This document shows, in pieces, positions 7,307 to 38,240 of a stretch of DNA of 38,240 bases (positions within the stretch are counted from its first letter, which is position 1; every line of letters begins with the position of its first letter). The notes beneath the pieces are model-generated. The model saw nothing but the letters and a program-made list of their open reading frames with translations, did not search any database and was not told the DNA's origin. The DNA comes from a virus: positions 1-38,240 of the IMG/VR virus record IMGVR_UViG_3300010885_015144; one strand, given 5' to 3'. The translations under genes were made by a program, and so were the position numbers.

Positions 7307-7310
7307 ACAT

Positions 7311-7823
7311 ATGGCTATTCAAAAATTTGTTACATTATCTGCCGGAAATCATAAATTGATTGATGGTGGAGTACAGACTTCTGCTGGTGCAGGCGACGCG
7401 GGTAAATTACCGGCGTTAGACGTTAGCGGAAGATTAGATTCATCTTTTCTTCCTGTTGGTATTGGTGCTGATACAGCGGCTATTGCTACCAGTGAATCAT
7501 TAAGCGCGGGTAAATTTGTTAACATTTGGAATAACTCAGGTTCGCCTGCTGTTCGTTTAGCAGATGCCACAACTGTTGGTAAAGAAGCACATGGATTTGT
7601 TTTATCATCATTTACTCATCCGTCAACTGCGACTGTATATTTTGAAGGATCGAATAATACTGTTACGGGCGCTACCGCTGGAAACGTATTTTTAAGTACA
7701 ACTCCAGGAGGATTTACTAGCACTCCTCCATCAACAACTGGTAACGTTGTTCAAAAAGTAGGGGTTGCAACCAGCGCAACTACGATTAATGTTGAATTTG
7801 CTGATCCAGTTGAATTAGCATAA
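7311..7823 (+). CDS. Virion structural protein with GIGADT/beta domain
   Basis: A 170-residue protein. The lead KFVTLSAGNHKLIDGGVQTSAGAGDAGKLPALDVSGRLDSSFLPVGIGADT, then SLSAGKFVNIWNNSG and ADATTVGKEAHGFVLSSF, ATVYFEGSN, and GNVFLSTTPGGFTSTPP is a well-known pattern in virion proteins of many tailed phages. In those phages it occurs in tail fibre or head/tail decoration proteins; the exact place in the particle is not known to me. It shares the terminal beta domain with the preceding protein. Confidence 0.6.
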   Translation: MAIQKFVTLSAGNHKLIDGGVQTSAGAGDAGKLPALDVSGRLDSSFLPVGIGADTAAIATSESLSAGKFVNIWNNSGSPAVRLADATTVGKEAHGFVLSSFTHPSTATVYFEGSNNTVTGATAGNVFLSTTPGGFTSTPPSTTGNVVQKVGVATSATTINVEFADPVELA

Positions 7824-20252: not shown

Positions 20253-23060
20253 ATGGCTGGAATATTCGGATTTACTATCGGTAAAAAAGAAGATAAATCT
20301 AAGAAAAAAATTGAATCGATTGTTCCTCCATCTAATGACGACGGCTCGATCATAAGCGCTTATTCTGCTTATGGTCTAGCCTTAGACTTAGACGGCGTTG
20401 TTAAAGACGAAAATCAGTTAATCAGACAGTATAGAATTGCTGCTGATTATCCTGATTGTTCATCTGCTATTGATGATATTACGAATGAAGCAATTACGTT
20501 TGATGGCATTAAATCTCCAGTTTCTATTAATCTGGACGGGGTTAAATACTCTGAAGGGATTAAAAATAAAATTAGAGATGAATTTAATGGCATATTAAGC
20601 ATTCTTGACTTCAATAAAAAAGGGTATGATTTCTTTAGACAATGGTACATTGATGGAAGAATGTATTTCCATATTGTACTTGATAAAGATAATCTGAAAA
20701 ATGGGATTGTTGAAGTCCGGTATATCGACCCAAGAAAAATTCGTAAAATTAAAGAAGTTAAAAAGGTAAAAGACGCATCAGGGAATGATGTTCACGTTGA
20801 TGGTGATTCTTATTATCTTTACAACGATAAAGGGTTTACTTCTACTACAAACCAAGGTATCAAACTCTCAACAGATTCTGTAATTTATGTTAATTCCGGT
20901 TTAATTGATTCTAATACTGGATTGGCTAAGAGTTATCTGCATAAATGTGTCAAATTGGTCAATCAGCTTAAAATGGCTGAAGACGCAATGATTATCTACC
21001 GTTATACCCGCGCACCAGAACGCCGTGTGTTTTATATTGATGTTGGTTCTTTACCTAAAATTAAGGCTGACCAATATGTTCAAGATACTATGGCAAGGTT
21101 TAGAAATAAACTTGTCTATAACTCAACGACTGGAGAAATAAGCGAGGATCGCAAATCTCCTTCAATGATTGAAGATTATTGGATGCCACGGAGAGACGGC
21201 TGTTTTGATTTATCGACTAAAATAAAACTTTTAGATGGCAGAGATGTAGAATTAGGTCAACTCATAGTTGAGCATAATGCAGGAAAAGAAAACTGGGTCT
21301 ATTCTGTTTCACCTACCGGTAAAGTTGTTCCTGGATTAATTTCTTGGGCAGGTGTTACTCGAAATGATGCGACAATTGTTGATGTTTATCTAGACAACGG
21401 TCAAATCGTAACGTGTACCCCAGACCATAAATTTATCTTAAGAAATGGCTTAAAGGTAGAAGCTAAAGATTTATCTGCTGGCATATCATTGATGCCTTGT
21501 GATGTAGAAAAACGTGTATTGTATGAAAATAAAGATTACAATTATGTTTTTGATAATGAATCCAACAAATGGATTACTACTCATAAAATGGTATCTTCGT
21601 TTGCCGAAAGAAATTTAGTCAAAAATGAAGTTGTCCACCATATAGATTTTAACAGATTCAATAATAATCCATCTAATTTGGTTATTATGGATAAAGATGA
21701 CCATTTTAAATTGCATTCTGGATATTCTACTCATTGGAGAACGACAGAAAAGGTTGATGAATGGAAACTTAAACTGTCTGAATCAGGTAAAGCCTTCTTT
21801 TTAACTGAAAATGGTTTAGCTCGCAAAGAAGAGATTTCTAAGTTTAATGCAGAATGTGAAAATGTTTGGAAAGGTTTAAAACTCGGAAGAGAACATATAA
21901 CTGAATCAAGAAATGCAGATAAACTTATTTTATCAAAAGAAGAATATCTTAAAAAATGGTCTCCAGGATTTACCAAAGAAATGCCTTTGATTGGTTCTGT
22001 TGCTTCTGAAAAACGTAAAATAGATAAAGAAATTTTATCAGAAACTGAATTTAATGAAAAATGGAAAAAGAATTTAGCTAACCGTAACGAAGCATTTTCT
22101 TCTTTATGCAAAAGTTATGATTTTAATGTGTTGGTTGAGTCAATCAAACAATCATATTATCCAAATATAAAAAACTCAGAAATTGTTGAAATTGCCAGTT
22201 CTATTTACCCTAACTTATCAAGCAAAAAATCTTTAAGTAGAGCATTGTTTGAACAAGGGTATGATTCAATTTCAGATTTTGTCATTAGAAATTTTGATGA
22301 AGTTGGAAAACGCCGTTCGTACAAAGCAAAATCCTTAAATAATCATAAGGTATTAAAAGTTGTAACTAGAACGGATACAATTGATGTCGGTACGTTAACT
22401 ATCGATGAACAGCATATACATCACGATTATCACAATTTTGCTTTATCTTCAGGCATTTTTGTGATGAACTCTAAAGGCACAGAAATTGTTACCCTTCCAG
22501 GTGGACAATCGTTAGGTCAAATTGACGATGTTGTGTTTTTCCAAAATAAACTTTACAAATCTTTGAATGTTCCTGCTTCAAGATTAACTCCAGAATCTGG
22601 GTTTAATATAGGGCGTTCTTCTGAAATATCAAGAGACGAAGTTAAGTTTGCTAAATTTATTGGTCGATTAAGACATAAATTTACTGCTCTGTTTATTGAT
22701 TTATTAAGAGTCCAAACGATCGGTAAAGGTATTGTCAGTTCTGATGACTGGGAAGAACTTGAACGAATTTTGTATTTTGAGTTCGCGGAAGATAACCATT
22801 ATGCTGAATTAAAAGATAATGAGATTATTCAAGGAAGAATTCAAACTCTACAATTAATTGACCCATATGTAGGTAAATATTACTCTGTTGATTGGATACG
22901 CAAAAACGTATTACATCAAACTGAAGAAGAAATTAAACAGATAGATAAAGAAAACAAGGAAGATTCAACTTTGCAGGCTAATGCTGAACAGCAAACATCT
23001 GACCAATCTACTGAAGATAATACGCAACAAACAACACAGGATACACAAAATGAACAATGA
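20253..23060 (+). CDS. 20: Portal vertex protein gp20 interrupted by an intein
   Basis: A 935-residue precursor. Residues 1-316 and 740-935 together form a 512-residue T4-type portal (T4 gp20 is 524): AYGLALDLDGVVKDENQLIRQYR, YPDCSSAIDDITNEAI, RRVFYIDVGSLPK, EDYWMPRRDG and then, after the intein, KGTEIVTLPGGQSLG. The intein spans residues 317-739. The mature portal dodecamer is the DNA entry gate and head initiation complex. The C-terminus is Gln/Thr/Asp-rich. The precursor must splice to give a functional portal, because the insert sits in the middle of the highly conserved PRRDG/KGTE block. Confidence 0.93.
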   Translation: MAGIFGFTIGKKEDKSKKKIESIVPPSNDDGSIISAYSAYGLALDLDGVVKDENQLIRQYRIAADYPDCSSAIDDITNEAITFDGIKSPVSINLDGVKYSEGIKNKIRDEFNGILSILDFNKKGYDFFRQWYIDGRMYFHIVLDKDNLKNGIVEVRYIDPRKIRKIKEVKKVKDASGNDVHVDGDSYYLYNDKGFTSTTNQGIKLSTDSVIYVNSGLIDSNTGLAKSYLHKCVKLVNQLKMAEDAMIIYRYTRAPERRVFYIDVGSLPKIKADQYVQDTMARFRNKLVYNSTTGEISEDRKSPSMIEDYWMPRRDGCFDLSTKIKLLDGRDVELGQLIVEHNAGKENWVYSVSPTGKVVPGLISWAGVTRNDATIVDVYLDNGQIVTCTPDHKFILRNGLKVEAKDLSAGISLMPCDVEKRVLYENKDYNYVFDNESNKWITTHKMVSSFAERNLVKNEVVHHIDFNRFNNNPSNLVIMDKDDHFKLHSGYSTHWRTTEKVDEWKLKLSESGKAFFLTENGLARKEEISKFNAECENVWKGLKLGREHITESRNADKLILSKEEYLKKWSPGFTKEMPLIGSVASEKRKIDKEILSETEFNEKWKKNLANRNEAFSSLCKSYDFNVLVESIKQSYYPNIKNSEIVEIASSIYPNLSSKKSLSRALFEQGYDSISDFVIRNFDEVGKRRSYKAKSLNNHKVLKVVTRTDTIDVGTLTIDEQHIHHDYHNFALSSGIFVMNSKGTEIVTLPGGQSLGQIDDVVFFQNKLYKSLNVPASRLTPESGFNIGRSSEISRDEVKFAKFIGRLRHKFTALFIDLLRVQTIGKGIVSSDDWEELERILYFEFAEDNHYAELKDNEIIQGRIQTLQLIDPYVGKYYSVDWIRKNVLHQTEEEIKQIDKENKEDSTLQANAEQQTSDQSTEDNTQQTTQDTQNEQ
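21201..22469 (+). mobile_element. Intein with HNH homing endonuclease inside gp20
   Basis: A 423-residue in-frame insert (codons 317-739 of gp20). It begins with Cys (CFDLSTKIKLLDGRDV, block A), has block B TCTPDHKF with Thr/His at insert residues 73 and 76, and ends HHDYHNFALSSGIFVMN followed by Ser as first C-extein residue. An HNH endonuclease signature, VVHHIDFNRFNNNPSNL with a later His at DDHFKLH, lies at insert residues about 144-172. The penultimate residue is Met rather than the common His. The insert's Lys/Glu-rich middle part (about 180-380) resembles DNA-binding regions of phage HNH enzymes. Confidence 0.9.
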
Positions 23061-34585: not shown

Positions 34586-35536
34586 ATGAGTTTGATAGCA
34601 AAACCAGAAGAATTTTTGTACGTTGAAAAATACCGTCCATCTAAAATTGAGGATTGTATTTTACCTGAACGAATGAAACAAACATTAAAAGATATCGTAA
34701 AACAAGGCGAGATTCCTAATATGTTATTTTCAGGCGGCGCGGGTACTGGTAAAACTACAGCAGCATTTGCGCTTTGTAATGAATTAGATGCTGACGTTTT
34801 ATTCATTAACGCATCTATGGAGTCTGGTATTGATGTTCTTAGAAGTAAAATCCAATCATTTGCTTCTACTGTATCATTTGGCGGTGGCACTAAAGTTGTT
34901 ATTCTTGATGAAGCTGACGGCTTAAACGCTAATTCTTTTCAGCCAGCATTGCGTGGTTTTATTGAAACTTTCAGTGCTAATTGTAGATTTATTCTTACTT
35001 GTAATTTTCCTCAAAAGTTGATTGCACCTATTCATTCAAGATGTACGGCTTTGAACTTCACTATTGAAAAAAGTGAGAAACAAGAGTTAGCGGCTAAATT
35101 CTTTAAAAGAGCATGTGCTATTCTTGTTGAAGAAAAAGTTGAATACGACCCAAAGGTGGTAGCTGAGGTTATTACTAAATTCTTCCCAGACTACCGTAGA
35201 GTTCTTAATGAATTACAGCGTTATTCTGTATCAGGTAAAATTGATTCTGGTATATTGTCTAACTTTAGTGATGATTCTTATAAAGCATTAATCGGCTATA
35301 TAAAAGAAAAAAACTTTACTGAAGTTAGAAAATGGGTAGGTATGAATGATGTTGATTGCGTAGAGTTATTCAGACATTTTTATGATTATTCATCGACTTT
35401 GGTTGAGCCTAATTCTGTTCCTCAGTTGATTTTAATTATGGCAGACTATTCATATAAATCTGCTTTTGTTGCCGATCAAGAGTTAAATATTATGGCGGCG
35501 CTTACTGAAATTATGTCCAGTGTAAATTTCAAATGA
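34586..35536 (+). CDS. 44: Clamp loader large subunit gp44
   Basis: A 316-residue AAA+ ATPase (T4 gp44: 319). Walker A GGAGTGKT (50-57), Walker B ILDEAD (106-111) and the SRC motif with arginine finger (151-153) are present, together with EKYRPSKIEDCILPE at the start and FPDYRRVLNELQRYS (sensor 2 region). With gp62 it opens and loads the gp45 clamp. The leader TTGAGGATACACTTATG resembles that of gp62 (GGGATACACTATG), a possible shared RegA target. Its stop overlaps the next small gene (ATGA). Confidence 0.95.
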   Translation: MSLIAKPEEFLYVEKYRPSKIEDCILPERMKQTLKDIVKQGEIPNMLFSGGAGTGKTTAAFALCNELDADVLFINASMESGIDVLRSKIQSFASTVSFGGGTKVVILDEADGLNANSFQPALRGFIETFSANCRFILTCNFPQKLIAPIHSRCTALNFTIEKSEKQELAAKFFKRACAILVEEKVEYDPKVVAEVITKFFPDYRRVLNELQRYSVSGKIDSGILSNFSDDSYKALIGYIKEKNFTEVRKWVGMNDVDCVELFRHFYDYSSTLVEPNSVPQLILIMADYSYKSAFVADQELNIMAALTEIMSSVNFK

Positions 35537-35652
35537 ATACATTAGCTGTAATTATTAGCTGTATCATAAACGTTTTAACCGGTATATGGTACACAGCTGA
35601 ACAAATAATTAAATTTATTTTCCATCCTTTTGAGACATTACATAAATTATGA
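35533..35652 (+). CDS. Tiny hydrophobic peptide (39 aa)
   Basis: ATG 35533 overlaps the gp44 stop (ATGA) and its own stop overlaps the next start (ATGA at 35649). It reads MNTLAVIISCIINVLTGIWYT followed by AEQIIKFIFHPFETLHKL: a transmembrane helix plus an amphipathic helix. The double coupling argues that it is translated. Function unknown. Confidence 0.5.
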   Translation: MNTLAVIISCIINVLTGIWYTAEQIIKFIFHPFETLHKL

Positions 35653-35900
35653 TTCAATTAATCTCTACTGTTTGTTTAATGGCGGCTTCTTTTTTTCTAG
35701 GTATGTTATACGGGCGCACTCTTAAGTTTGATGGTGCGAAATCTATTTACGTTAAAATAGAAAAACATGACGACCTATTTTTCGCCTATGAAAATAAGAC
35801 TTCAAAGTATCTGGGTAAAAGCGATGATTATAACACTTTAATTCAGTATTTGAAAGATTCGTTTCCAGATTACATTATCTATATTATTGACCAAGAATAA
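35649..35900 (+). CDS. Small protein with N-terminal membrane anchor (83 aa)
   Basis: The first about 21 residues are hydrophobic (MIQLISTVCLMAASFFLGMLYG), then a cytosol- or periplasm-facing soluble part with SIYVKIEKHDDLFFAYENKTSKYLGKSDDYNTLIQYLKD. The soluble part resembles small domains with the FAY-N-x-KxFL pattern found in phage membrane proteins. Coupled to the peptide gene before it. Function unknown. Confidence 0.5.
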   Translation: MIQLISTVCLMAASFFLGMLYGRTLKFDGAKSIYVKIEKHDDLFFAYENKTSKYLGKSDDYNTLIQYLKDSFPDYIIYIIDQE

Positions 35901-35905
35901 AAACT

Positions 35906-35913
35906 TATAAATA
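35906..35913 (+). promoter_or_regulatory. T4-type late promoter box TATAAATA before gp62
   Basis: An exact TATAAATA stands 35 bases before the gp62 ATG. The first seven bases can pair with ATTTATA at about 35926-35932, so a small stem is possible. Confidence 0.45.
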
Positions 35914-35947
35914 ATAATGATGTCACATTTATATTATGGGATACACT

Positions 35948-36346
35948 ATGGCAAAATTGTTTGATTACTTAACAGCTATAAACTTCACGAAAGAAAATTT
36001 ACTTGTTGATGAACAATCTGTTAAAGAATATACACCTTTTATCATTAACAGGGGTTTATCTTATTATGTCGACACGGTGTTACAGGCTAACGAAATGAAC
36101 CGTTATCCTAATCTACCAAAAGATATGGCAAATGATTTTTTACTGGCGTCTATTAAAAAGAAAAAACGATTTTCTAAATGGGTCAAGAAAGCCGATAGTT
36201 CAGATGATTTGAATTTGGTGTGCGATTATTTTAATTACAGCAAAGAAAAAGGAGCGTTGGCTCTTACCTTATTAACTGAAAGTCAAATTGATACTGTCAG
36301 AGAACAAATGGGTACGGGTGGGAAACAAAAACATGGAAAAGTATGA
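35948..36346 (+). CDS. 62: Clamp loader small subunit gp62
   Basis: A 132-residue protein from ATG 35948 (an earlier in-frame ATG at 35936 would add four residues; the leader GGGATACACT before 35948 matches that of gp44). Lines PFIINRGLSYYVDTVLQANEMNRYPNLPKDMANDFLLASIKKKKRFSKWVKK and CDYFNYSKEKGALALTLLTESQIDTVREQM correspond to the short gp62 type of cyanophage-like T4 phages; T4's own is 187 residues. It is the non-ATPase subunit that completes the gp44 tetramer. regA begins inside its 3' end. Confidence 0.85.
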   Translation: MAKLFDYLTAINFTKENLLVDEQSVKEYTPFIINRGLSYYVDTVLQANEMNRYPNLPKDMANDFLLASIKKKKRFSKWVKKADSSDDLNLVCDYFNYSKEKGALALTLLTESQIDTVREQMGTGGKQKHGKV

Positions 36347-36722
36347 TTTATTAGAAATCACATTAAAACAGCCTGATGATTTTTTAAAGGTTCGTGAAAC
36401 ATTAAGCCGTATCGGTATTGCTTCTAAACAAGAAAAGAAACTTTACCAGACTGCTCATATATTACATAAACAGGGTAAATATTATCTGGTGCATTTTAAA
36501 CAATTGTTTGAACTTGATAATAAGCCTACCTCTATATCAGATGATGATATTAAACGCAGGAACACAATTGCCAAATTATTGAACGATTGGGGTTTACTAG
36601 AAATTGTCAATAAAGTTGACCTTGAAACTTGCTCACTAAATACCATAAAGATTCTTTCTTTTCAAGAGAAATCTGACTGGGAACTATGCCCAAAATACAA
36701 TTTGGGAAACAACAAATCTTAA
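36333..36722 (+). CDS. regA: RegA translational repressor
   Basis: A 129-residue protein from ATG 36333 (T4: 122), overlapping gp62 by 14 bp. It follows RegA from end to end: LLEITLKQPDDFLKVRETLSRIGIASKQEKKLYQTAHILHKQGKYYLVHFKQLF, DDIKRRNTIAKLLNDWGLLEIV and the C-terminal ILSFQEKSDWELCPKYNLGN. RegA binds initiation sites of early mRNAs including genes 44 and 45 and lowers their translation. Its location just after 62 is the same as in T4. Confidence 0.92.
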   Translation: MEKYDLLEITLKQPDDFLKVRETLSRIGIASKQEKKLYQTAHILHKQGKYYLVHFKQLFELDNKPTSISDDDIKRRNTIAKLLNDWGLLEIVNKVDLETCSLNTIKILSFQEKSDWELCPKYNLGNNKS

Positions 36723-36739
36723 CCTTTTGGAATGACTAT

Positions 36740-36922
36740 ATGCTGATTACATTAGAATTACCTGTTGAAGAAGTGAATTTTATCCTTGAAATGCTTTCTG
36801 AAGAACCTTATCGTGATGTTAGTGAAATTATCACTAAAATTCAAAATCAGGGTCGTCCTCAAGTAGAAGCCGCAGAATTAGCGGCGGCTCAAGAAGAACA
36901 AGCTGAAGCAACTGAAGAATAA
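36740..36922 (+). CDS. Small acidic phage protein, unknown (60 aa)
   Basis: ATG 36740 with TGGA upstream; an in-frame ATG at 36686 lies within regA. It reads MLITLELPVEEVNFILEMLSEEPYRDVSEIITKIQNQG and then an Ala/Glu/Gln-rich tail. The first 40 residues are a pattern I know from many phages as a small protein of unknown function, probably a helical dimer. Confidence 0.6.
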   Translation: MLITLELPVEEVNFILEMLSEEPYRDVSEIITKIQNQGRPQVEAAELAAAQEEQAEATEE

Positions 36923-36944
36923 ATAAAATGGAATATATATTACA

Positions 36945-37298
36945 ATGAATAAAATGCCACAGCTAATTGCTTTATTGTTTGATGCTAGAAATAAAGCACA
37001 TATCGCACATTTACAAACAACAAGTTTTTCTCAGCACAAGGCGCTGGAGGAGTTCTATAATGCAGTTATTGACATTGCGGATTCGCTTGCGGAAAATCAT
37101 CAAGGGAGAAATGGGATTATTAATGATTATCCTGTTGTTAATAACCCTAGTGATGCAGTCCAATTGGTTTCTACCTTACGTTCTTGGGTAGATGCTAATC
37201 GTGCTGATTGTGGTTCTGAAACTGAAATTCAGAACATTATAGATACTTTACAATCTTTGAACAACGAAACTTTGTATAAGCTAAACAATTTGAGATAA
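36945..37298 (+). CDS. Helical protein of the DUF5856 type
   Basis: A 117-residue protein that starts MNKMPQLIALLFDARNKAHIAHLQTTSFSQHKALEEFYNAVIDIADSLAENHQGRNGI. The spacing of His and Glu in AHIAHLQT...HKALEEFY and in DxxDSLAE resembles ferritin-like or Dps-like four-helix bundles, which phages of T4 type often encode (DUF5856). Whether metal is bound is not known. No strong SD is visible; start taken as first ATG. Confidence 0.65.
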   Translation: MNKMPQLIALLFDARNKAHIAHLQTTSFSQHKALEEFYNAVIDIADSLAENHQGRNGIINDYPVVNNPSDAVQLVSTLRSWVDANRADCGSETEIQNIIDTLQSLNNETLYKLNNLR

Positions 37299-37302
37299 CA
37301 TC

Positions 37303-37548
37303 ATGAATATTTTTTCTAAAATCGGTCACGCTGTTAAACATGAAGCTGAGGCAGTTGGTAATGGCGTGGTTGATATTGCTACCGGTGTAGCGGCTAAAAC
37401 TGCTTATGATGCTATTGTATCAACTGGTACAGCCGCTGTAGAAGGAACTGTTGCCGCCGCTGGTACTGTAGCTGAAGTTGCTGGTAGCGCGGAAACTATC
37501 GCGGTTTTGACAGAAGTGGGTGAAGTAGCGGCGATTGCTGCTCTTTAA
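37303..37548 (+). CDS. Ala/Val-rich small protein, unknown (81 aa)
   Basis: After a short basic lead (MNIFSKIGHAVKHEAEAVG) the sequence is almost only Ala, Val, Gly, Thr and Glu (DIATGVAAKTAYDAIVSTGTAAVEGTVAAAGTVAEVAGSAETIAVL). It forms one or two long amphipathic helices that could lie on or enter a membrane. Such proteins are frequent in phages and their role is unknown. Last gene before the RNA region. Confidence 0.5.
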   Translation: MNIFSKIGHAVKHEAEAVGNGVVDIATGVAAKTAYDAIVSTGTAAVEGTVAAAGTVAEVAGSAETIAVLTEVGEVAAIAAL

Positions 37549-37555
37549 ATAAAAC

Positions 37556-37584
37556 TTTACTTTATTGTGTAAATAAATTATAAT
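37556..37584 (+). promoter_or_regulatory. Early promoter of the RNA region
   Basis: TTTACT 37556-37561, 17-bp spacer, TATAAT 37579-37584, followed by a gene-free region and the tRNA genes. Transcription should start near 37591. Confidence 0.75.
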
Positions 37585-37590
37585 ATACCT

Positions 37591-37920
37591 GTAGTTTGAG
37601 TTAAAGAGTTTTGGTAGCCTATTCGGTTTGGATCGGGGTTACTATCAAAATTGGAAGCACTACCAATTAAAAGTGGCAAATGTATGTTCTGCGGAAAGCC
37701 TTAAAGCACAAAAAAGAACTGACAGTTTGGAAAGACAAACATTATGAAGCATAAGTATTACATTCTAGTCGGGTTTGTGGTCATACTAGGCAGCACATGT
37801 AACTCCGTTAAATACTTATGACTTGATAGTTAATGCGTAGGTTGATACGCAAGAGAATAGGTTGACTGCCCAATAGAACAGTAATGCCGGAGGTTCAGTA
37901 CCGGTGACTATCTAAAAAAT
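37591..37920 (+). ncRNA. Candidate structured RNA between promoter and tRNA genes
   Basis: About 330 nt without a gene. Stems I can draw: 37609-37617 / 37642-37650 (9 bp, one G-U), 37649-37654 / 37663-37668 (AATTGG/CCAATT), 37725-37729 / 37736-37740 (GTTTG/CAAAC), 37750-37759 / 37811-37820 (10 bp perfect, CATAAGTATT) enclosing 37760-37763 / 37797-37800 and CTAGT/ACTAG (37765-37769 / 37785-37789), and GATAGT / ACTATC (37825-37830 / 37907-37912) enclosing three hairpins: TGCGTA/TACGCA, ACTG/CAGT and CCGG/CCGG (37887-37890 / 37901-37904). Its class is unknown; large phage RNAs such as GOLLD and ROOL are also found near tRNAs but are longer. The ends are approximate. Confidence 0.55.
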
Positions 37921-37922
37921 TT

Positions 37923-37994
37923 GCCCTTTTAGCTCAACGGCAGAGCGTATTCCTCATAAGAATTTGGTTCCAGGTTCGAATCCTGGCGAGGGCA
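37923..37994 (+). tRNA. tRNA with CAT anticodon (Met or Ile2)
   Basis: A 72-nt cloverleaf: acceptor GCCCTTT with CGAGGGC (one mismatch at the inner end), D-arm GCTC/GAGC, anticodon loop CTCATAA (CAT at 37955-37957), T-arm CCAGG TTCGAAT CCTGG, discriminator A. No CCA is encoded. CAT may be elongator Met or, after lysidine modification, Ile; the sequence does not decide. Confidence 0.9.
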
Positions 37995-38032
37995 CAAATA
38001 GTTTTAAACCTTTACTTTTTTAAAAAATATTT

Positions 38033-38116
38033 GGAGGTCGAGCGGCATAGGCGACTGCAGCGGACTGTAAATCCGTGCCCAAAGGGCACCTGGTTCGAAT
38101 CCAGGGATCTCCACCA
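38033..38116 (+). tRNA. tRNA-Tyr (GTA), CCA encoded
   Basis: Acceptor GGAGGTC pairs with GATCTCC (one G-U), anticodon loop CTGTAAA with GTA at 38067-38069, a long variable arm (GCCC/GGGC) as expected for type II tRNA-Tyr, T-arm CCTGG TTCGAAT CCAGG and genomic CCA at 38114-38116. Confidence 0.92.
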
Positions 38117-38136
38117 ATTACAAAGACTTATTAGGT

Positions 38137-38210
38137 GTGACTATGACGGAATTGGTAGACGTCCTCGATTGTGATTCGAGATTTTGTGGGTTCGAGTCCC
38201 ACTAGTCACC
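38137..38210 (+). tRNA. tRNA-His (GTG)
   Basis: Acceptor GTGACTA pairs with TAGTCAC, short D-stem ACG/CGT around a GAATTGGTAGA loop, anticodon stem CTCGA/TCGAG with loop TTGTGAT (GTG at 38171-38173), T-arm GTGGG TTCGAGT CCCAC and discriminator C, as in bacterial tRNA-His. No CCA follows. Confidence 0.9.
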
Positions 38211-38227
38211 CCTAATAAGTTTTAAAC

Positions 38228-38240
38228 GCCACTGTAGCTC
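38228..38240 (+). tRNA. Start of a fourth tRNA, cut by the window edge
   Basis: GCCACTG TA GCTC at the right edge has the form acceptor strand, T8-A9/U8-A9 and first D-stem strand of a tRNA. The rest is outside the window, so the identity cannot be given. Confidence 0.6.

Follow-up and report, generated by a model that had tools for sequence, protein, structure and literature searches.

The large structured phage RNAs GOLLD (RF02032) and ROOL (RF03087) are found near tRNA islands, assemble via kissing loops and sometimes carry tRNAs in a linker; their function is unknown (PMC12286853). STnc100 (RF02076) is a prophage sRNA that is expressed and Northern-positive in EHEC (E. coli EDL933; PMC5331693); it has been linked to PasD, and one paper discusses the targets of PasD/STnc100 (PMC13192938). 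T4 encodes two small stable RNAs, rnaC and rnaD, and Proteo-phage-1 (RF03044) is a further phage RNA described in Rfam.

The window analysed here (that is, the whole stretch of 38,240 nt of viral DNA) derives from a T4-like myovirus, with a T4 neck protein, a gp19-type tail tube, tail sheath, portal, clamp, clamp loader and UvsW. Its portal ORF (20253-23060, 935 aa) matches portal proteins over residues 1-336 and HNH endonuclease families over residues 431-541, and may contain an intein or an inserted endonuclease. Near the end of the window, positions 37549-37922 are flanked by an 81-aa ORF on one side and a tRNA-Met gene on the other. An earlier note had described this region as a gene-free stretch before tRNAs with a promoter ahead of it, and both claims were borne out: no ORF of at least 50 aa was found between 37548 and the tRNA-Met at 37923, and a TTTACT-17-TATAAT promoter occurs as an exact match. 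The window has five promoters of the type TTTACT-N16..18-TATAAT (27293, 28961, 29056, 33135, and 37556), the last of which is kept in the related contigs L001-L005 and L057. Downstream of the 28961 promoter, the sequence TAGCCTAGTCGGGCG is similar to the 5' end of the RNA (GTAGCCTATTCGG). We inferred a transcription start at ~37591. The 3' end, also inferred, presumably results from RNase P cleavage where the tRNA-Met starts, 9 nt past the closing stem on the same strand. One more tRNA probably begins at the window end. The features of the locus are as follows.

37556-37584, + strand: early-type promoter, exact match (-35 TTTACT 37556-37561, 17-nt spacer, -10 TATAAT 37579-37584)
37592-37922, + strand: whole RNA, about 330 nt, both ends inferred (promoter upstream, same-strand tRNA downstream)
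37611-37648, + strand: 5' hairpin TTGGTAG / CTATCAA, present in the MFE structure of 37605-37740
37650-37667, + strand: hairpin ATTGG / CCAAT, from sequence and fold
37686-37719, + strand: hairpin GTTCT / AGAAC, with the compensatory form GTTAT / ATAAC in L003
37725-37740, + strand: GAAAGA hairpin GTTTG-GAAAGA-CAAAC; the stem covaries, the loop is invariant in the window's subfamily
37741-37822, + strand: swappable module A, type A0, with a long stem
37823-37831, + strand: closing stem, 5' strand TTGATAGTT; the strand preceding module A is an alternative partner for its first part
37835-37850, + strand: core hairpin 1, GCGTA-GGTTGA-TACGC (helix 2 of the 43-sequence core alignment)
37851-37885, + strand: swappable module B, type B0, one of 19 B types
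37886-37905, + strand: core hairpin 2, GCCGG-AGGTTCAGTA-CCGGT (helices 3 and 4 of the core alignment)
37895-37899, + strand: kissing loop TCAGT, complementary to GTTGA 37841-37845 in loop 1
37906-37914, + strand: closing stem, 3' strand GACTATCTA (helix 1 of the core alignment)
37923-38212, + strand: tRNA-Met(cat), tRNA-Tyr(gta) and tRNA-His(gtg), downstream of the RNA

Every stem that the earlier note had drawn could be located in the letters: the perfect 10-bp stem (CATAAGTATT 37750-37759 / AATACTTATG 37811-37820), the alternative pairing of TTGGTAG (37611-37617) with either CTATCAA (37642-37648) or CTACCAA (37660-37666), the closing stem GATAGT 37825 / ACTATC 37907, and the motif CCGG-N10-CCGG (37887-37890 and 37901-37904, ten bases apart). 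The folding energy of the complete 331 nt did not exceed chance (z -1.23, 12 of 100 shuffles folding as well). The window's module A, which is a long stem and lacks a T-arm, did so when folded alone (z -3.1, none of 200 shuffles). Thus, the evidence exceeding chance is the covariation across homologues and not the folding energy of the full region.

Searches of cultured phages with the window itself (blastn/megablast) gave no useful match, and relatives could be reached only via IMG/VR and, afterwards, by chaining to cultured phages. An IMG/VR search with the upstream 81-aa protein retrieved five close contigs, and pattern searches based on the two best conserved pieces yielded 41, 47 and 73 stretches. 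The short pattern GGAAAGACA..CAYTATG by itself was too loose (115 stretches, the majority without the core). A generic hairpin-plus-kissing descriptor was also over-permissive (1637 matches, and 190 in 345 kb of shuffled sequence), and we therefore anchored the core search on GG[CT]TGA. The core model R1, run with cmsearch, recovered 37823-37914 of the window at 38.8 bits, the window unit being part of the training set.

The resulting alignments showed the window stretch to be a unit of a conserved structured RNA in which, on comparative evidence, a closing helix surrounds two hairpins with mutually pairing loops. The core consists of these two hairpins inside a closing stem of 7-9 bp, with the swappable domain B between them. 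The earlier note had proposed covariation in homologues as a check, and compensatory change was strong. In 43 aligned core sequences, 97.3% of the cells in the proposed structure are standard pairs, and 15 of the 24 pairs show double-sided changes (101 double-change cells). None of 500 shuffles attained any of these pairing or double-change values, and sliding the partners lowered pairing to 26-51%. Both sides have changed in eight of the nine pairs of the closing stem, with variants such as UUGAUAGUU/AACUAUCAA, GUUGUGGUG/CACCACAAC, GAUUGGAUG/CAUCCAAUC, GAUGCAGUG/CACUGCAUC and AUGCAGGUG/CACCUGCAU; core hairpin 1 is 100% paired, with three of five pairs changed on both sides. The recurrent G-U pairs (13 and 8 sequences at two pairs) point to an RNA rather than a DNA element. 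We also used a separate set of 120 viral contigs, among the matches listed for a search pattern that leaves the closing helix largely free. There, the seven outer closing pairs were formed on average at 5.6 of 7 positions, versus at most 4.34 in 500 shuffles, with at least 35 distinct closing helices; hairpin-1 positions were picked by best closing pairing, so that the observed value is somewhat favoured.

The loops GGCUGA and AUCAGC are complementary. This kissing helix has changed from C-G to U-A in L031, reads GACUGA/UCAGU in phage PLPE, and includes many G-U variants (GUUGA/UCAGU in the window). Since most of its positions are invariant, it is backed by fewer changes than the other helices. 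Outside the core, the outer stem of module A also covaries (6.5 of 8 pairs versus a shuffled maximum of 5.0), with G-C replacing A-U in the long stem of L057. In the 5' hairpin, L003 has TTGATAG, so that a G-U pair is replaced by A-U. The GAAAGA hairpin, found in Iodobacter phage PLPE too, has the stem variants GCTTG/CAAGC, GCCG/CGGC, GCTG/CAGC and ACTCG/CGAGT. A subclass with another hairpin pair, GCCGGACGCTGTAACCGGC, occurs in L022 (650-740), L113 (about 7310-7420), L047 and L152; its loop could pair with an upstream CAGC-containing loop, which would represent a different kissing sequence.

The units share a common layout, from 5' to 3': the GAAAGA hairpin (in most units), a long stem with the variable domain A, the closing strand TTGATAGTT, hairpin 1, the variable domain B, hairpin 2, and the closing strand AACTATC. 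Among 57 distinct units we recognized about 20 types of A module and 19 of B in many combinations, arranged singly or in tandem. The module borders are sharp. L002 shares 98.4% and 97.4% identity with the window in two stretches spanning 34849 to 37851 and switches to unrelated sequence exactly at 37851, the end of hairpin 1 (GCGTAGG[CT]TGATACGC); its module B differs from that of L001, and it holds a second unit in tandem. Likewise, the A module that comes after one and the same gp32-like gene end (acidic tail ...DDESEEDDF*) varies from contig to contig. L057, read directly over 2000-2360, retains the 5' part and module A of the window RNA without hairpin 1, B and hairpin 2, and hence the core is not indispensable. 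L010 is, like L057, a close relative of the window that has lost the core; both are natural deletion variants. The commonest B module (B6) was found outside the core too, near tRNA-like fragments (L187 1501-1542, Salmonella phage SA002), and modules may therefore predate the scaffold. The units diverge by module swapping and vary in length, which fits the absence of a conserved reading frame, a coding frame being what the earlier note would have taken as refutation. Its proposal of a candidate new phage RNA is thus supported as regards a structured RNA; rather than standing alone, this RNA is a single unit in a modular family whose members often occur in tandem.

The core family reaches many phages of Pseudomonadota, including Escherichia phage P1, Alcaligenes CASP1, Pseudomonas AH02, PAJU2 and ZC03, Klebsiella KP591P1, the BASEL phage Bas77, Iodobacter PLPE, Enterobacter BUCT554, Erwinia vB_EhrS_59 and the Salmonella phage-plasmid-like record L186. 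In CASP1 the unit is located in an 884-nt gap upstream of tRNA-Met and tRNA-Arg. In P1, dmt and ban are separated by an array of ~1.7 kb that comprises two core units, at 2434-2648 and 2943-3044 of L195, as well as tRNA-Asn, tRNA-Thr and an STnc100-related last unit, and is overlain by the annotated ORFs plp and upl. A widespread structured RNA has thus remained unannotated in one of the best-studied phages, sometimes beneath doubtful ORFs such as these. Of 5426 complete E. coli genomes, 1055 contain a match to the 215-nt P1 unit, and in 225 of these the match covers at least 80% of the unit. Much of the total is therefore due to partial matches; counting the P1 unit or parts thereof alone, the RNA occurs in about one fifth of these genomes. 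A 23-base seed of the enterobacterial form is present in at least 120 IMG/VR contigs. The element is rare among the genome representatives of GTDB: the strict 3' pattern found nothing and the core pattern only one contig, from a Methylomonas MAG, carrying primase and terminase genes; model R1 had no match beyond that contig in 321 genomes of the same class. It is hence mainly a phage or accessory element. Scattered phage dark matter is thereby joined into one family with a testable core, and its presence in P1 opens its function to immediate testing.

Adjacency to tRNAs, which the earlier note had stressed, proved common without being defining: 24 of 158 units have a tRNA within 1.5 kb, several of them within 10 nt, and 23 of these 24 lie on the same strand as the nearest one. 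At least two of the 24 nearest "tRNAs" are A modules called as tRNA by ARAGORN and several loci are closely related, so the strand count does not represent independent events. As for the modules themselves, a strict (canonical) tRNA T-arm is present in 8 of 40 distinct A segments, where 40 segments drawn at random from these contigs would be expected to give 0.16, and in 2 of 33 B segments; the other 32 A modules lack it. The P1 module A folds as a three-armed, tRNA-like structure with its acceptor stem extended into the core helix (z -4.6), and ARAGORN reads module A of L113 as a tRNA with an odd anticodon. By this comparison, some of the exchangeable domains are degenerate tRNAs. They retain T-arms and D-arm-like parts; unlike in true tRNAs, the acceptor stem continues into the core helix and the anticodon arm is absent or odd. 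We infer that such modules are not chargeable as they stand. In the window itself, tRNA and tmRNA models (ARAGORN, Rfam) run over the RNA region found only the downstream tRNAs.

Comparison with Rfam, a check proposed at the outset, detected no family in the RNA region apart from tRNAs, consistent with a new RNA. Despite its resemblances, the window RNA belongs to no Rfam 15 family; its unit does show the features of the core family (closing stem, two hairpins and complementary loops, with covariation, and the 38.8-bit score of a training member). STnc100 is the closest known RNA, probably as a distant relative, and the two probably form a larger superfamily. Like the core family, STnc100, known from Salmonella and E. 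coli, is prophage-borne; it measures about 200 nt and, by alignment inspection, shares the outline of a closing stem (..GGUG-AAU / CACC..), a hairpin, a variable middle and a G+C-rich hairpin. Its hairpin and loop sequences are different, however, and neither an exchangeable tRNA-like module A nor tandem arrays have been described for it. The STnc100 model (threshold 47 bits) had no match in the window and reached at best 38.5 bits in related arrays, in the last unit of L186; the last P1 unit scored 33.9 bits and the ES2 unit was spanned at 23.8 bits. Only 1 of 50 core-seed records contained STnc100 above threshold. Conversely, R1 had no match on an STnc100 locus scoring 80 bits; neither model detects clear members of the other. 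The core family nevertheless gives this poorly understood prophage sRNA a probable evolutionary context.

As identities for the RNA, GOLLD, ROOL and tmRNA were rejected for lack of a model match: GOLLD and ROOL did not reach the Rfam gathering threshold anywhere in the window or in 35 related loci, and 37500-38240 gave no match to them even at E values up to 10. Both are likewise large structured RNAs of phages, have kissing loops and occur near tRNA clusters; they differ in sequence and structure, are much longer, and lack the plan of exchangeable modules set around a short core. The T4 RNAs rnaC and rnaD, also small RNAs at the end of the tRNA cluster of a T4-like phage, were discarded as homologues, an R1 search of the T4 tRNA region giving none at E<=1. 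Proteo-phage-1 is likewise a phage intergenic RNA and, in Pseudomonas phage PS-1 (L202, 971-1050), precedes a core unit by 150 nt; it is a separate element, present in only one of the loci searched. A literature search for Proteo-phage-1 and core sequence strings found no paper.

What the RNA does can only be inferred. We tentatively favor, with somewhat less than even confidence, a conserved modular unit freed by RNase P, in which a kissing-loop scaffold carries swappable decoy or adaptor domains. Most likely it would function as a stable RNA that acts in trans and confronts host factors with exchangeable decoy domains, in part tRNA-like. The window RNA would start at the early promoter and be co-transcribed with the tRNAs, as the strand agreement supports, and cleavage by RNase P at the tRNA-Met would release it. 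The pseudoknotted kissing-loop core would act as a rigid, nuclease-resistant scaffold and source of stability, and the swappable domains as working ends, serving in trans as decoys or adaptors for RNA-binding factors of the host or of competing phages. The tRNA-like domains may bind readers of tRNA shape (anticodon nucleases, tRNA-sensing defences, processing enzymes), which suggests a use for degenerate phage tRNAs. Domains would be swapped by recombination within the conserved core, allowing a phage lineage to change targets. We favor decoys or adaptors because the constant part has no obvious output, because the variable parts are compact, folded, partly tRNA-shaped and exchanged as blocks, and because CRISPRi knock-down of genes of the P1 region is tolerated in the laboratory, trnT, plp, upl and tciABC having been scored non-essential (PMC10695390). 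By analogy, a region dispensable under laboratory conditions would suit a defence or host-range factor. On the other hand, no B module has an identified target, most A modules (32 of 40) lack the strict T-arm, the proposed scaffold has been lost in L057, and module shuffling could be plain phage mosaicism. A more specific version, a combinatorial system in which recombination shuffles domains, many of them tRNA-derived, on the kissing-loop scaffold so that each neutralizes another host factor (e.g., a tRNA-cutting defence enzyme), appears possible but rather doubtful.

The related STnc100 has been regarded as a regulator acting by base pairing, and this other mode of action also weighs against decoys. 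The units could accordingly be regulatory sRNAs like STnc100 and PasD, their variable domains being mRNA seed regions. We consider this unlikely, even though STnc100 is prophage-borne, expressed and Northern-positive in EHEC (PMC5331693), PasD/STnc100 targets have been discussed (PMC13192938), and the STnc100 model matches the P1, L186 and ES2 units, albeit always below threshold: the modules are compact structured domains without single-stranded seeds, R1 does not match STnc100, and the window unit is followed by tRNA-Met without a terminator or poly-U Hfq tail. The position of the window unit, directly between an early promoter and a tRNA array, would also suit a cis-acting transcription element. 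The put RNAs of HK022 provide the model: the core, as it emerges, would bind RNA polymerase and let it continue through the tRNA array, which is untranslated and rich in hairpins, and through the genes nearby. The units of PAJU2 and ES2, between the antiterminator-Q gene and the lysis genes, agree with such a role. Nonetheless, it seems quite unlikely, as merely 24 of 158 units have a nearby tRNA, tRNAs also precede units in P1, related segments in phiV10 and BUCT554 are oriented opposite to the neighbouring genes, and swappable tRNA-like domains would not be needed. Still more doubtful is a self-assembling RNA, in which intermolecular kissing loops would build a multimer or cage with the modules as interior or exterior cargo. 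The core family does share phage carriage, tRNA proximity and conserved kissing loops with GOLLD and ROOL, yet it matches neither, its units measure about 80-330 nt versus about 600-800 or more, and intramolecular pairing suffices, both loops lying in one closed domain. Finally, sharp module borders at conserved core sequence and modules that are degenerate tRNAs could betray a mere recombination cassette or a graveyard of decayed tRNAs kept by phage mosaicism, with no functional RNA. This we regard as very improbable, given that selection has preserved the closing stem, the hairpins and the kissing-loop pairing through many double changes and G-U pairs, and that strand agreement with tRNAs is nearly complete (23/24).

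Two further elements came to light in Shewanella phage KASIA and other phages. A group I intron (RF00028, 59.8 bits) lies at L170 786-1129, inside the KASIA terL; as it occurs only within that gene, it was excluded as part of the RNA. A second conserved RNA-like segment, GGAGAGTCACTACCGTTAAGTGTGAAGTTAAAA, is present in L170 (KASIA, 2465-2889), L190 (1501-1542) and L192 (1501-1540). It occupies tRNA arrays or gaps in phages of Cronobacter, Serratia, Vibrio and Shewanella, and pieces of the 420-nt KASIA gap match 66 phage records.
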